This document shows positions 2,040 to 7,232 of a stretch of 64,000 nucleotides of DNA, piece by piece; position 1 is the stretch's first letter; each line of letters opens with the position of its first letter. The position numbers and the translations under genes were made by a program. The notes under the pieces are model-generated. The model was not told the origin of the DNA and did not search any database. It saw only the letters and a list, made by a program, of their open reading frames with translations. The stretch is from an uncultured bacterium (GTDB taxonomy: Bacteria > Spirochaetota > Leptospiria > Leptospirales > Leptonemataceae): the NCBI GenBank assembly GCA_937928085.1, contig CALFVU010000011.1, forward strand, positions 62,001 through 126,000. The letters run 5' to 3'.

Positions 2040-2744
2040 TTATAGTTGATCTTCACACAACTTTTTACATGTTTGATGTATTGCATTCACAACATTCAGT
2101 TTGATTGACTTTCCTACTTGATTTTTTTTTACAAAATTTTGGTTAATTTCAAATTCTATTCCTATATACTTTTCTTTAAACATTTGCCTTAATTGAGTTG
2201 TATGACCATCAGTATATCCCCGGTAAGGCAAGTTAAGGTGGCAAATATAAGGAGACAATTTTTTTTTTAGTTCTTTTGCAAATTTTTTTTCTAAAAAATT
2301 TCTGGGATCGTATAAAATACCAATTTCTGTCTTTCGATACTTACTCTTAAAAACAGATACAAAACTATGTATAGAAAAATGAATCACTAAAAAGTTTTTT
2401 TGAATACAATCAGAAATAAATCGATAAGATCTTTCTCGAAAAATTTTGTAATTTTTTATTAAAAGTTCTTTTTGATTCTTCGAAAGATATTTACTAAATT
2501 TAGAAAAAATTTTTGGATTATCCAAGGATCGATTATAATCTATTAAAAGACGAGTTATCGTACTATGAATCAACAATTTTTGATTATAGTTTAAAGATTC
2601 ATATAAAAATTTTGCTAGATCGTAAGCTCCCTCATCATAACCATAATGAGAATGGATTATAGTTTCGGGAATAAAAACATTTTTGAATTCCTCTGGAATT
2701 GTGTTGAATGCATGTTCACAAGAAATCAAAAAAGCAAACTTCAT
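2040..2744 (-). CDS. N-formylglutamate amidohydrolase-family protein
   Basis: ISCEHAFNTIPEE, HFSIHSF, EIGILYDPR, LPYRGYTDGHTT, IGIEFEINQ pattern of the FGase family. Confidence 0.8.
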   Translation of the reverse strand: MKFAFLISCEHAFNTIPEEFKNVFIPETIIHSHYGYDEGAYDLAKFLYESLNYNQKLLIHSTITRLLIDYNRSLDNPKIFSKFSKYLSKNQKELLIKNYKIFRERSYRFISDCIQKNFLVIHFSIHSFVSVFKSKYRKTEIGILYDPRNFLEKKFAKELKKKLSPYICHLNLPYRGYTDGHTTQLRQMFKEKYIGIEFEINQNFVKKNQVGKSIKLNVVNAIHQTCKKLCEDQL

Positions 2745-3949
2745 CAGTTATAGAAAGAAGTATTTTCTTGTAAATGTTTTATAAGTTTTTTATAAACTTT
2801 TATTATATTTTTTTGACTCAAATCTAATCGATTTTTCTTAAAATACATCAAAATTCTTTCTGATAAACTTCCTTGCTTAAGAATAATATCTAGTGATTCA
2901 TTATATTTTTGAGGATACGGAATAAATTTTAAAATAGATTTTACAAATTCTCTTATATTTTTTTTATTTTTATTGATTCCCCAAATTCTCAAATATTCCT
3001 CAGGTAGAATTGTTTTTGTTCCATTCATAATAGATTCTTTATAAATTTTATATAGAATCGGTAAACCTAAGCTTTTTTGATAATTATGATTTACTAAAAA
3101 CTTAATCATTTCTACAAATAGATTGATTAAAGTAAAATCCATCTTTGGACTTTCTTGAACATCCATAATTCGTATTTCTATTGCATTTCTATCAAATCTT
3201 GGTATTGCACCACGAGAGTTTAACCATTCTTTTTGTAAATTTTTTTGTGGATCATATTGCGAAATTTCTTTAAACATTTTAGAAAAAATTTTATTTTTGT
3301 ATTCTTCTATAGAAGTTATATATTCGGGGATCACTTTACCTGTAATCGTTGGCACTTTTTTTTGATTTCTCTCGTAAAAATACAATCTGCTATCTAAAAG
3401 AAATTTCTTTCCTTCGACAATAGGAGAAGAGGAAGCCAAAGCAGGTATGATAGGAATTACAACTCTTATTGCATTATGTAATAGAAAAAATTCATTATCT
3501 CCCAAAAATGGCAAATTGATATGAACGCTTTGTAAATTAGACCACCCATGTCCTTTGCAATCAAAAATCTTGTTGTATGTATGGTAAATTTTTTTATTTC
3601 CGTTATTCCATAAATACATTTCTTTTTTTGGGTCTAAAAGAGGATGCATTCCTGTAGGCATTAAAACAGTATTGAATTGCTCTAAAAAAGCATTAATACA
3701 TAAAACAGCCTCGTTGATTACATCATCAAATTGCAAAGTATTCTTGGGATAAGTAGTTTTTAATTCAATAAGTGTTCCTACAAGTTCATTAGAAATCGAA
3801 ATATGATCATTTAATTTTACTTCGTTTTTTAATCTATTTTGATGAAAATGCCTTAAAATTTTTTCTGCCAAGTTTTCTACTTTTAAATTTTCTTTGTTTA
3901 CAATCACATATTCTGACTCAATTCCATAAACCTGAAATAAATGATACAT
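2744..3949 (-). CDS. GCS2-type carboxylate-amine ligase (glutamate-cysteine ligase-like)
   Basis: YGIESEYVIV, ISNELVGTLIELKTTYP, PTGMHPLLDP, SVHINLPF, RNAIEIRIMDVQESPKMD consistent with the GCS2 family. Confidence 0.8.
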   Translation of the reverse strand: MYHLFQVYGIESEYVIVNKENLKVENLAEKILRHFHQNRLKNEVKLNDHISISNELVGTLIELKTTYPKNTLQFDDVINEAVLCINAFLEQFNTVLMPTGMHPLLDPKKEMYLWNNGNKKIYHTYNKIFDCKGHGWSNLQSVHINLPFLGDNEFFLLHNAIRVVIPIIPALASSSPIVEGKKFLLDSRLYFYERNQKKVPTITGKVIPEYITSIEEYKNKIFSKMFKEISQYDPQKNLQKEWLNSRGAIPRFDRNAIEIRIMDVQESPKMDFTLINLFVEMIKFLVNHNYQKSLGLPILYKIYKESIMNGTKTILPEEYLRIWGINKNKKNIREFVKSILKFIPYPQKYNESLDIILKQGSLSERILMYFKKNRLDLSQKNIIKVYKKLIKHLQENTSFYN

Positions 3950-3957
3950 AAAATTTG

Positions 3958-5436
3958 TTAAAAATTTTTATTTTTTATTAAACGATAATAAAAATATTTC
4001 ATTATTGTTTCGTATAATTTGTCTTTAAGATATTTATCTTCAACCCCATATTCAATATTGGGATTATCATTAATTTCTATTACATAAACTTTATTTTTTA
4101 TTTCTTTTAAATCTACCCCATACAAACCTTTGCCAATCAGATTGGAAGCCATAATAGCTGTATGTAATACAGATTTTGGAACTTTTCTAATAGGAAGGGT
4201 TTCGGTATTTCCATCTCTATTTTTTATAGAGCTCCAGTTGATTACTTGCCAATGATCTTTAGCCATATAATATTTACAAGCATAAAGAGGTTTACCATCA
4301 AGAATTCCAATTCTCCAATCATATTCTGTAAATAAAAACTCCTGAGCAATTACAATAGCACTTTCTTTAAAAAGTATCTCAATATTTTCTAAAAATTCTT
4401 TTTGATTTGTAGCTTTGATTACACCCATAGAAAAAGCACTATCTGGCTTTTTTAAAACACACGGAAAAGTAATAGATTCTAAAATTTGCTTATAATTATT
4501 CTTAAAAAGAATATAAGTTTTTGGAATTCTAATTTTATTTTGATCTAATAATTCTGTTAAAAACACTTTATTGGAACATTTTAAGATAGAATTTGGATCA
4601 TCCACAACAACGAGTCCCATGGTTTCTGCTAATCGAGAAAATTTATAAGTATGATGATTTACATTCGTAGTTTCTCTAATAAAAAGAGCATCAAACTCTG
4701 CCAATCTGTCTATATCTTCCGGAAAAATGATTTCTACTTTAAAGCCCATATTTTTGCCCGCTTCCACAAATTTTTTTATAGCCTTTGGATCAGAAGGAGG
4801 ATTTTTCTCATTTTGATTTATTAAAATTGCAAGATCATAATGAGTTCTATAACGTCTTGTTTTATATTTTCTTTTTAGTTTCAAATATTCTTCTAAAGAA
4901 GAGTTAACTAAATCATAATGTTCAACAGGTATATTTTCTAAAGATAAAGGTTCTATATTTTGAATCATCCAAAAAGTTTTTCTTTTAGTAATTTTTTTAG
5001 CAAAATAAACTTTAAACAATGGCATTTTTAAAAGATGAAAAAGTTCGGAAGCTAACTTCTCGTACTTTAACGCAATATTCTTTCCAAAGTATATACTAAG
5101 TTCAAATTCACTACCAACTATAGAGAATAAACTTTTTTCGATCAAATTGCTTAATTGATTCATAATCTCTCTAATTAATTTAATAGATTTAAAATCCAAA
5201 ATTTGCAGAATCTCTGGAATTGGTTTCTGATTTCTTGCTTCAGCTAAAAGACTTACATAATAACCCATAGACTGGTACCGATAAGAACTACATAAATTTA
5301 TAACTAAATTTTTTTCTTCACAACTAACATGATCATAATTTGCAATATAATCTTTAGCAAAAATAACTTGATATAAATTTGAATTTTTAAATATTTCTTT
5401 ATTTGCTTTCTTATCAATAACTACTACAAAACTCAT
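3958..5436 (-). CDS. RimK-like ATP-grasp ligase with N-terminal RLAN domain
   Basis: N-terminal INLCSSYRYQSMGYYVSLLAEARNQKPIP (RLAN signature); ATP-grasp motifs FPCVLKKPDSAFSMGV, IAQEFLFTEYDWRIGILDGKP, VYVIEINDNPNIEYGVED. Confidence 0.9.
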   Translation of the reverse strand: MSFVVVIDKKANKEIFKNSNLYQVIFAKDYIANYDHVSCEEKNLVINLCSSYRYQSMGYYVSLLAEARNQKPIPEILQILDFKSIKLIREIMNQLSNLIEKSLFSIVGSEFELSIYFGKNIALKYEKLASELFHLLKMPLFKVYFAKKITKRKTFWMIQNIEPLSLENIPVEHYDLVNSSLEEYLKLKRKYKTRRYRTHYDLAILINQNEKNPPSDPKAIKKFVEAGKNMGFKVEIIFPEDIDRLAEFDALFIRETTNVNHHTYKFSRLAETMGLVVVDDPNSILKCSNKVFLTELLDQNKIRIPKTYILFKNNYKQILESITFPCVLKKPDSAFSMGVIKATNQKEFLENIEILFKESAIVIAQEFLFTEYDWRIGILDGKPLYACKYYMAKDHWQVINWSSIKNRDGNTETLPIRKVPKSVLHTAIMASNLIGKGLYGVDLKEIKNKVYVIEINDNPNIEYGVEDKYLKDKLYETIMKYFYYRLIKNKNF

Positions 5437-6146
5437 TTCTCTATAACTAATAAATTCGCATCAAAAGTCACAATTCCAAGTAAAATTGAGTTAATTAATC
5501 TTCCTACACGCACTTTATATGTAGTATCCTTCTTTCCGGGATGTAGAGGGTAAGGATCTTTTACAATTATTTTTTTATTTGTATTATCATACCCTATCAA
5601 CACTACAAAATGACCACTAGGTTCCCCACAAACATCATTTTCAATCACAGTATAAGGATCGGGAGAAATTTCTCTCATCGAATTATAAAGATAAGTTGAG
5701 CTTAAACCAGTAATGATAGGTATTTTTTTATTGAAAATATTTCTAAATAATTTAGGAGTTAAATCTTTATATAAAATTTTTCCGCCATATTGAATAAACT
5801 TTAAATAGGACTTTGTGGCTTGCACTAATTTTGAATTATCTTTTTTACATTTTCTTTGCTGTATGAGTTTTTTTTTAAGATTGATTCCCTTTTTCTGAAA
5901 CCATGTAGGATCAAAAATTTGCAAATTATAAGTATATATTGTGACCTTATATCCTCTTCTTAAAGCGTGATTTCCTAGCATTACAGCCAAAGTGCCTCCC
6001 TCTTTTAGAAATTCTACTTCGTTTCTCATCGTTTCTAAAGAGGGAAATGCGTCCTCATAGTATCTGTAAATCGATTGAAGACAAGTGATCCCACAACTCG
6101 TTTCATCAGGTTGGTTTTCTATATAAAAATCTTTGATCGATCTCAA
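5433..6146 (-). CDS. Stand-alone C39-like cysteine peptidase
   Basis: ENQPDETSCGITCLQSIYRYY (Q and C), GHFVVLIGYD (H), IIVKDPYP (D): full C39-like active-site set, no ABC transporter domain. Confidence 0.8.
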   Translation of the reverse strand: MRSIKDFYIENQPDETSCGITCLQSIYRYYEDAFPSLETMRNEVEFLKEGGTLAVMLGNHALRRGYKVTIYTYNLQIFDPTWFQKKGINLKKKLIQQRKCKKDNSKLVQATKSYLKFIQYGGKILYKDLTPKLFRNIFNKKIPIITGLSSTYLYNSMREISPDPYTVIENDVCGEPSGHFVVLIGYDNTNKKIIVKDPYPLHPGKKDTTYKVRVGRLINSILLGIVTFDANLLVIEK

Positions 6147-6152
6147 TTTTTT

Positions 6153-6545
6153 TTATCTCCAAAAATTCAACCATTTTTGAAAAAATTCAACAGTTTCGTA
6201 CCAAAGCTGCGAAAAAAAACCTTGTTTGTCATATCGAGCTAATAATTTTTTAGCTTTTTCAATTTCTTCAGCATTAAAGTTTTTTCTGTTTTGATTCTCT
6301 TCTAATTCTATTAAAATCCTTTTTTTCTTATCTCTTACATCTACAATTTTCGCTTCAATACTTTCCCAGCCCAGTTTTTTTGCAGCTTTATATCTTCTAA
6401 AGCCAGCAATTAACTCCATGTCTTGATTCAATAAAACTGGCTGTAATTGCCCATATATAGAAAAAGATTCCATTAAATCCTCCACATCTACTTTTCGACT
6501 CCTGATTCTCGGGGAAATCTTAATATCCTTGATAGGAACTTGCAT
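6153..6545 (-). CDS. ParB/Srx-fold (ParB N-terminal-like) protein without HTH, aromatic C-terminal tail
   Basis: IKISPRIRSRKVDVEDLMESFSIYGQLQPVLL, ELIAGFRRYKAAKKLGW (GxRRxxA box), LIELEENQNRKNF box; ends KQGFFSQLWYETVEFFQKWLNFWR. Confidence 0.8.
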   Translation of the reverse strand: MQVPIKDIKISPRIRSRKVDVEDLMESFSIYGQLQPVLLNQDMELIAGFRRYKAAKKLGWESIEAKIVDVRDKKKRILIELEENQNRKNFNAEEIEKAKKLLARYDKQGFFSQLWYETVEFFQKWLNFWR

Positions 6546-6695: not shown

Positions 6696-7232
6696 CTAAG
6701 CAAAATCCCAAAAAAAAGAATAAACTTCGCCACTCAAATACCTCCATTCCTCACAATGAATATAATTATTCATTGCAAGAAAATTATTTTGTTTAAAATT
6801 TTGTTGTATGTGTTGTAAATCCAGAAATGATAATGGGATAAGAGAATGAATAGAAAAGCCTTTTGATTGTAATTCCCATTCTAAAAGTATTCGTATTATA
6901 CAACTTACTGAATAGCCTGTTGTAGATTTTAATTCTTTTAGTTTTTTCCATACTTTTGGACTGATTTTTCTTAAAAGAATTCTTTTGTAGTTTTTTGTTT
7001 TGGGTTGGTAATATGTAGTTGCTCTTTTTAAAGAAGTTTTCGTTTTTTCTTTTATTAGCTTATTTTGAAATTTCTCAATTAAGTATTCTAAGAAAAAAGA
7101 AAGATCTTCTCTGTGATTTCTTTTTAAGAAAACATAGAGATGAGGTTGAATGTATACACAATATTGGTAAATCTTTTGTAATTGATAGGAATCTTGATGC
7201 ATCATATATAAGGATATACTCAAAAACTTCAT
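6696..7232 (-). CDS. DUF1564-like protein
   Basis: TTYYQPKTKNYKRILLRKISPKVWKKLKELKSTTGYSVSCIIRILLEWELQSKG resembles the Leptospira-expanded DUF1564 core (YQP...W..L..L....G.S.c.i...LL..E). Confidence 0.5.
   Translation of the reverse strand: MKFLSISLYMMHQDSYQLQKIYQYCVYIQPHLYVFLKRNHREDLSFFLEYLIEKFQNKLIKEKTKTSLKRATTYYQPKTKNYKRILLRKISPKVWKKLKELKSTTGYSVSCIIRILLEWELQSKGFSIHSLIPLSFLDLQHIQQNFKQNNFLAMNNYIHCEEWRYLSGEVYSFFWDFA

Follow-up and report, generated by a model that had tools for sequence, protein, structure and literature searches.

A four-gene module around an RLAN/ATP-grasp ligase with a predicted role in small amide or peptide metabolism

On balance, positions 2040-6146 of the DNA analysed here, a 64,000-nucleotide stretch from an uncultured bacterium of the Leptonemataceae (the window), probably hold one copy of a module for the synthesis and turnover of a small amide or peptide in the cytosol. 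The module combines two predicted ligases with two predicted hydrolases. The ORF listing places five genes at 2040-6545, all on the minus strand and at the positions given in a preliminary description of this DNA, whose account of their spacing is borne out by the ORF coordinates and Pfam matches: the ParB-fold and C39-like genes are 6 nt apart, the C39-like and RLAN genes overlap by 4 nt, RLAN and GCS2 are separated by 8 nt, and GCS2 and FGase overlap by 1 nt (Table 1).

Table 1. Genes and domains of the locus (positions in the window).
Feature	Positions	Strand	Remarks
Short ParB_N-fold protein	6153-6545	-	130 aa; adjacent, outside the module
Putative C39-like papain-fold cysteine peptidase or amidohydrolase	5433-6146	-	237 aa; TTG start; module gene 1
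RLAN + RimK-type ATP-grasp ligase	3958-5436	-	492 aa
RLAN N-terminal domain, residues 1-200	4837-5436	-	predicted fold resembles an ATP-grasp enzyme without the nucleotide lobe
Complete ATP-grasp half of the RLAN ligase	3958-4850	-	
Predicted GCS2-type carboxylate-amine ligase, divergent	2744-3949	-	401 aa
Predicted FGase-family amidohydrolase	2040-2744	-	234 aa

The four families named in the preliminary description all scored above their Pfam gathering thresholds: Peptidase_C39_2 (PF13529; 1e-10, 42.8 bits against 24), RLAN (PF14401; 1.1e-39, 135.9 bits against 25) in the N-half of the ligase, GCS2 (PF04107; 3.8e-22, 79.4 bits against 21) and PF05013 (1.8e-10, 41.8 bits against 28.9) for the FGase. 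The C-half of the ligase matched RimK (PF08443; 1.2e-10, 41.7 bits against 21), and the ParB-fold protein matched ParB_N above the gathering score (1.3e-10). With both halves above the cut-offs and the active-site residues present, the ligase belongs to the RLAN family. None of the four enzyme sequences has a hydrophobic N-terminus. All four lie far below the cut-offs of the NCBIfam equivalog and subfamily models (RimK, YbdK, LysX, glutathione synthetase and others), so that no specific function can be transferred; the ligase reached 72.1 bits with the RimK alpha-L-glutamate ligase model (TIGR00768, rimK_fam; cut-off 143.4), and the GCS2 ligase, the only GCS2 protein in the genome, reached 40.2 bits with the YbdK-type model (TIGR02050; cut-off 176.4).

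The active sites are preserved throughout. The Q, C, H and D site of the C39-like protein, described as intact, proved invariant in an alignment of 55 sequences (Q13, C19, H180 and D198). In the ATP-grasp half, K290, K329, D442, E454 and N456 do not vary among 17 full-length ligases, nor do the corresponding columns among 46 ATP-grasp halves; by sequence, the first two are the lysines of the fold and the other three its metal ligands. In the GCS2 ligase, E11, E13, E62, H102, H143, N145 and E258 are invariant in 45 sequences, and the GxExE metal motif is retained together with the HP, QxxHxN and EIR positions. Invariant residues of the FGase (E10, H11, H122, H126, E197 and E199) are candidate metal-binding or catalytic residues. 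Degenerate ligase active sites were looked for as evidence against the operon, and none of the four enzymes is degenerate.

A profile search of 81 related genomes found RLAN in 22 of them. Sixteen genomes, all RLAN-positive, have the C39 family, in each case with the C39 gene adjoining the RLAN gene; GCS2 is present in 16, of which 14 carry RLAN, and FGase in 15, of which 13 do. Among the 59 RLAN-negative genomes the corresponding counts are 0, 2 and 2; a weak C39 match in one genome (G075) and a weak FGase match in another (G065) were excluded from these counts. In the window and in eight spirochaete relatives the four genes stand side by side in the order C39-like, RLAN ligase, GCS2, FGase; three further spirochaetes keep this order, but an unrelated gene separates GCS2 from RLAN. 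Several of the relatives' RLAN loci end at contig edges. Thus the gene order, whose loss in relatives was also looked for, is kept for the four enzymes, and the proposal of a conserved amide or peptide operon is well supported as to its two ligases, two hydrolases and their order, but not as to the ParB-fold gene. Where FGase or GCS2 genes occur without RLAN (G029, G053, G031 and G039), they share no common alternative partner. Two spirochaete genomes that lack both RLAN and C39 carry relatives of the module GCS2 (L133:4483-5730 and L134:2053-3297), convergent with CYTH-domain and aminotransferase genes that were assigned by Pfam in L133 and by clustering in L134. In one relative, G071, the RLAN gene is split into two ORFs (L033:7180-8713), by a frameshift or an assembly error.

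Beyond the relatives, a scan of named genomes gave at least 592 confirmed RLAN ligase stretches; several hundred genomes encode such a ligase, many with all four genes. We parsed 76 loci out of the best 80, many of them cut by contig ends. All four genes were present in 36 of the 76, and C39, RLAN and GCS2 in another 21, with median intergenic spacings within the module of 2, -4 and -14 nt. The next commonest neighbour family appeared in only 9 of the 76 loci and at scattered offsets, and no other constant partner, transporter or precursor peptide recurred in the sample. The loci span more than a dozen phyla, among them Bacteroidota, Pseudomonadota, Planctomycetota, Spirochaetota, Thermodesulfobacteriota, Verrucomicrobiota, Fibrobacterota, Balneolota, Ignavibacteriota, Nitrospirota, Myxococcota and several candidate phyla; in Legionella adelaidensis the order RLAN, GCS2, FGase is annotated gene by gene. 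Many loci have no FGase, and some (P. aeruginosa, Aeromonas and several spirochaetes) no GCS2, which indicates that RLAN can work without them. A lone RLAN-type ligase with 39% identity, without C39, GCS2 or FGase, lies on P. aeruginosa plasmid pZYPA1927 next to an Orn/Lys/Arg decarboxylase-like gene.

In the ligase tree the window sequence pairs with that of Leptospiraceae bacterium KatS3mg129, a member of the same genus (62% identity, support 100/100), inside a supported set of 31 rows that are mostly Bacteroidota; a further ligase from the Leptospiraceae, L112, groups with the other large set. This topology fits repeated transfer of the module, with paralogy as the alternative, and the four-gene module is probably horizontally mobile.

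The preliminary description had the two ligases build an amide or peptide conjugate and the two hydrolases trim or recycle it; the enzyme set and order behind this are conserved, and the product is a predicted one. In our scheme, GCS2 would activate a glutamate-type carboxylate and cap the amine of an acceptor amino acid, giving gamma-glutamyl-X. The RimK-type ATP-grasp enzyme would then act on the capped unit, activating its free carboxylate and adding the next amine, and so extend the carboxyl end. The papain-fold C39-like enzyme might cleave or transpeptidate the product, and the FGase might release the cap or an end residue, so that the pool is adjusted or salvaged. Both the GCS2 and ATP-grasp families switch substrates readily in evolution, and the reaction order and substrates are therefore guesses. 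Glutathione synthesis, in which GshA (or GCL) is followed by the ATP-grasp enzyme GshB, has the same order of ligase types, gamma-glutamyl and then ATP-grasp, although the module's GCS2 enzyme and ligase match neither the GshA nor the GshB family. We found no match to GshA (PF04262), GshB (PF02955) or BshC in the genome, which is 92% complete; this leaves room for a thiol role, and a glutathione-like thiol is a possible product. A simple thiol-replacement story is weakened, however, by the bacillithiol or glutathione that is generally present in hosts from the Bacteroidota and Pseudomonadota.

Loci without GCS2 offer a variant of this scheme. A GNAT domain is fused to RLAN in three of them (L040, L041 and L088), and in Azospirillum to a DUF3335-type C39 protein (PF11814) adjoining RLAN; none of these fusion loci has GCS2 nearby. 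Of 22 loci without GCS2, 5 have a GNAT nearby or fused, as does 1 of the 82 loci that have GCS2; these are small numbers, obtained with a GNAT profile that was itself built from four of those five loci. In one locus (L089) the GNAT gene lies more than 2 kb from the ligase, and the majority of GCS2-less loci have no GNAT. The pattern suggests that GCS2 and GNAT are alternative routes for capping an amine ahead of ATP-grasp extension. Synthesis of N-acetylglutaminylglutamine amide (NAGGN) uses a GNAT and an ATP-grasp enzyme; its acyl-transfer N-cap followed by ATP-grasp extension has the same logic as the GNAT-RLAN fusions. Unlike that pathway, the window ligase has no NCBIfam match to such a model, and no asparagine-synthetase-like partner was seen.

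The RLAN domain was modelled with a pLDDT of 93.5, and the 50 best Foldseek matches of the model in the PDB are all ATP-grasp-fold enzymes, including LysX, ArgX, RimK, PPIP5K, ITPK, synapsin, MdnB, PsnB and PurK, with TM-scores mostly of 0.5-0.57 over the query. As the domain has 200 residues against about 280, the nucleotide lobe is probably missing; judged by the predicted structure, RLAN probably resembles an ATP-grasp ligase without that lobe, a likeness that is new here. We rejected the idea that RLAN is a duplicate of the ATP-grasp half recognisable by sequence: the first profile match came from an overlap of shared residues, and the comparison was not significant once these were removed. 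The reading of RLAN as a degenerate ATP-grasp is accordingly one at the level of the fold. A more ambitious synthesis, which we regard as doubtful, is that the module makes a new, phylum-spanning, glutathione-like N-capped peptide (perhaps a low-molecular-weight thiol, perhaps a compatible solute) with a recycling arm, in which GCS2 and GNAT would be interchangeable capping enzymes and RLAN a degenerate second ATP-grasp serving as the ligase's docking half.

The AlphaFold model of the C39-like protein (pLDDT 93) has as its nearest solved folds the phytochelatin synthase Alr0975, the C39 domain of PCAT1 and a C39-like peptidase, which are statistically tied. Alr0975, a primitive phytochelatin synthase that cleaves glutathione, shares the papain fold and the active-site cysteine, but identity is about 10% and Pfam assigns the window protein to C39_2, not to phytochelatin synthase. 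For the GCS2 ligase, a single-sequence search of the PDB gave no match, and a profile search gave weak matches to the YbdK structure and to plant GCL. The solved structure closest to the FGase is 2odf (E 4.6e-37); judged by sequence, it resembles N-formylglutamate deformylase (HutG-type) at the level of the family only.

The same enzymes could instead serve a cycle of protein modification, in which the RimK-type ligase would extend a cellular protein by amino acids, at its C-terminus or on side chains, as RimK does with ribosomal protein S6, the C39-like enzyme and FGase would remove them in the manner of RimB, and GCS2 would make or activate the added unit. The ATP-grasp half is nearest to RimK, LysX and ArgX, enzymes that act on proteins, and the RimK/RimB glutamylation cycle likewise pairs a RimK-type ligase with a dedicated peptidase (PMC12239564). 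Compared with that cycle, the peptidase folds differ, the module has two extra enzymes and its ligase falls below the rimK_fam cut-off. No gene for a target protein is linked, and the passage of the module between phyla as a closed unit is more in keeping with a self-contained metabolite than with a host-specific target; we consider such a modification cycle unlikely.

Two further readings fared less well against the neighbourhood sample. A role of the ligases in cell-wall modification or recycling, by making or editing the peptides of peptidoglycan or a related polymer, seems improbable: an amidase_3 gene follows the module in one locus (L034), a Mur-ligase-like gene in another (L030), and the structural neighbours of the C39 model include the pseudomurein endoisopeptidase PeiR, but the two gene neighbours are single cases and no wall gene recurs in the 76 loci. 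A graspetide-like pathway, with the ATP-grasp enzyme modifying a ribosomally encoded precursor and the C39 enzyme removing its leader, would draw on the known roles of C39 domains in leader cleavage during peptide export and of ATP-grasps in graspetide cyclisation (PMC8939145). We judge it very improbable. The module lacks both an ABC transporter and a conserved short ORF (60 aa or longer), its spacings would hardly accommodate one, its C39 protein is stand-alone, mostly 230-260 aa across the family, rather than a transporter domain, and GCS2 and FGase are atypical of graspetides. A role of the C39 protein as a bacteriocin leader peptidase was rejected on the same stand-alone architecture and on the lack of a recurring transporter or precursor in the 76 loci.

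The preliminary description had also cast the ParB-fold gene as leader and possible new component of the operon, and this did not hold. Orthologues with 66-71% identity occur in three genomes of the same genus (G001, G002 and G003), and none adjoins the operon; G001 keeps the gene (66% identity) without RLAN, C39, GCS2 or FGase, and the survey found no linkage to RLAN in any relative examined. In five relatives (L137 to L141) its neighbour is a SpoU-type methylase gene, identified by a Pfam run on the G002 copy, with which the other four cluster. No terminator-like site lies between the ParB-fold gene and the module, nor anywhere in the whole window, so that co-transcription is possible in this species; this does not imply a shared function. 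With adjacency, a common strand, the 6-nt gap and possible co-transcription in its favour, and unlinked orthologues, G001 and the conserved methylase neighbour against it, a leader role for the ParB-fold protein is scarcely credible; the gene plays no part in the module and is a chance neighbour.

Neighbourhoods with RLAN, GCS2 and C39 were reportedly described by Iyer et al. in 2009 (Mol BioSyst) in a comparative genomic study of amidoligases, which makes the window locus one of a kind already known. The reported neighbourhoods and the window locus share an RLAN-ATP-grasp ligase, GCS2, a C39-like (or DUF3335-type GNAT-C39) peptidase and a predicted peptide or amide metabolite; the window differs in that its C39 protein is not of the DUF3335 type and comes without GNAT, FGase is a fourth gene and the ParB-fold neighbour is fortuitous. 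PF11814 had no match in the window or in the 81 relatives. The link between DUF3335 and GNAT is credited to the 2009 study in PMC10318531. No description of the full set of four genes was found in the literature searched. New here are the exclusion of the ParB-fold gene, the four-gene boundary, the co-occurrence numbers, the GNAT/GCS2 pattern and the fold reading of RLAN. The clean boundaries (four genes, ParB out, no transporter, no precursor) make heterologous expression combined with metabolomics direct, and such work, if it confirmed a product, could bring to light a widespread peptide of the cytosol that has so far been overlooked.

The flanks of the locus yielded some minor observations. 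A stand-alone ParB_N-fold protein is conserved through most of the family. On the upstream side, 6696-7232 (minus strand) encodes a small protein whose G002 relative (L137:3034-3555) weakly matches DUF1564 and lies two genes from the ParB gene, which suggests that the ParB neighbourhood is ancestral and that the operon was inserted into it. Downstream, three overlapping minus-strand genes occupy 480-1935. The first matches FMN_bind weakly and contains a 'DIPVIAGATLTARTV' stretch similar to the SGATxT site found in covalently flavinylated proteins, and the other two encode apparent membrane proteins with no Pfam match; together they possibly form a small flavin-based membrane electron-transfer unit.
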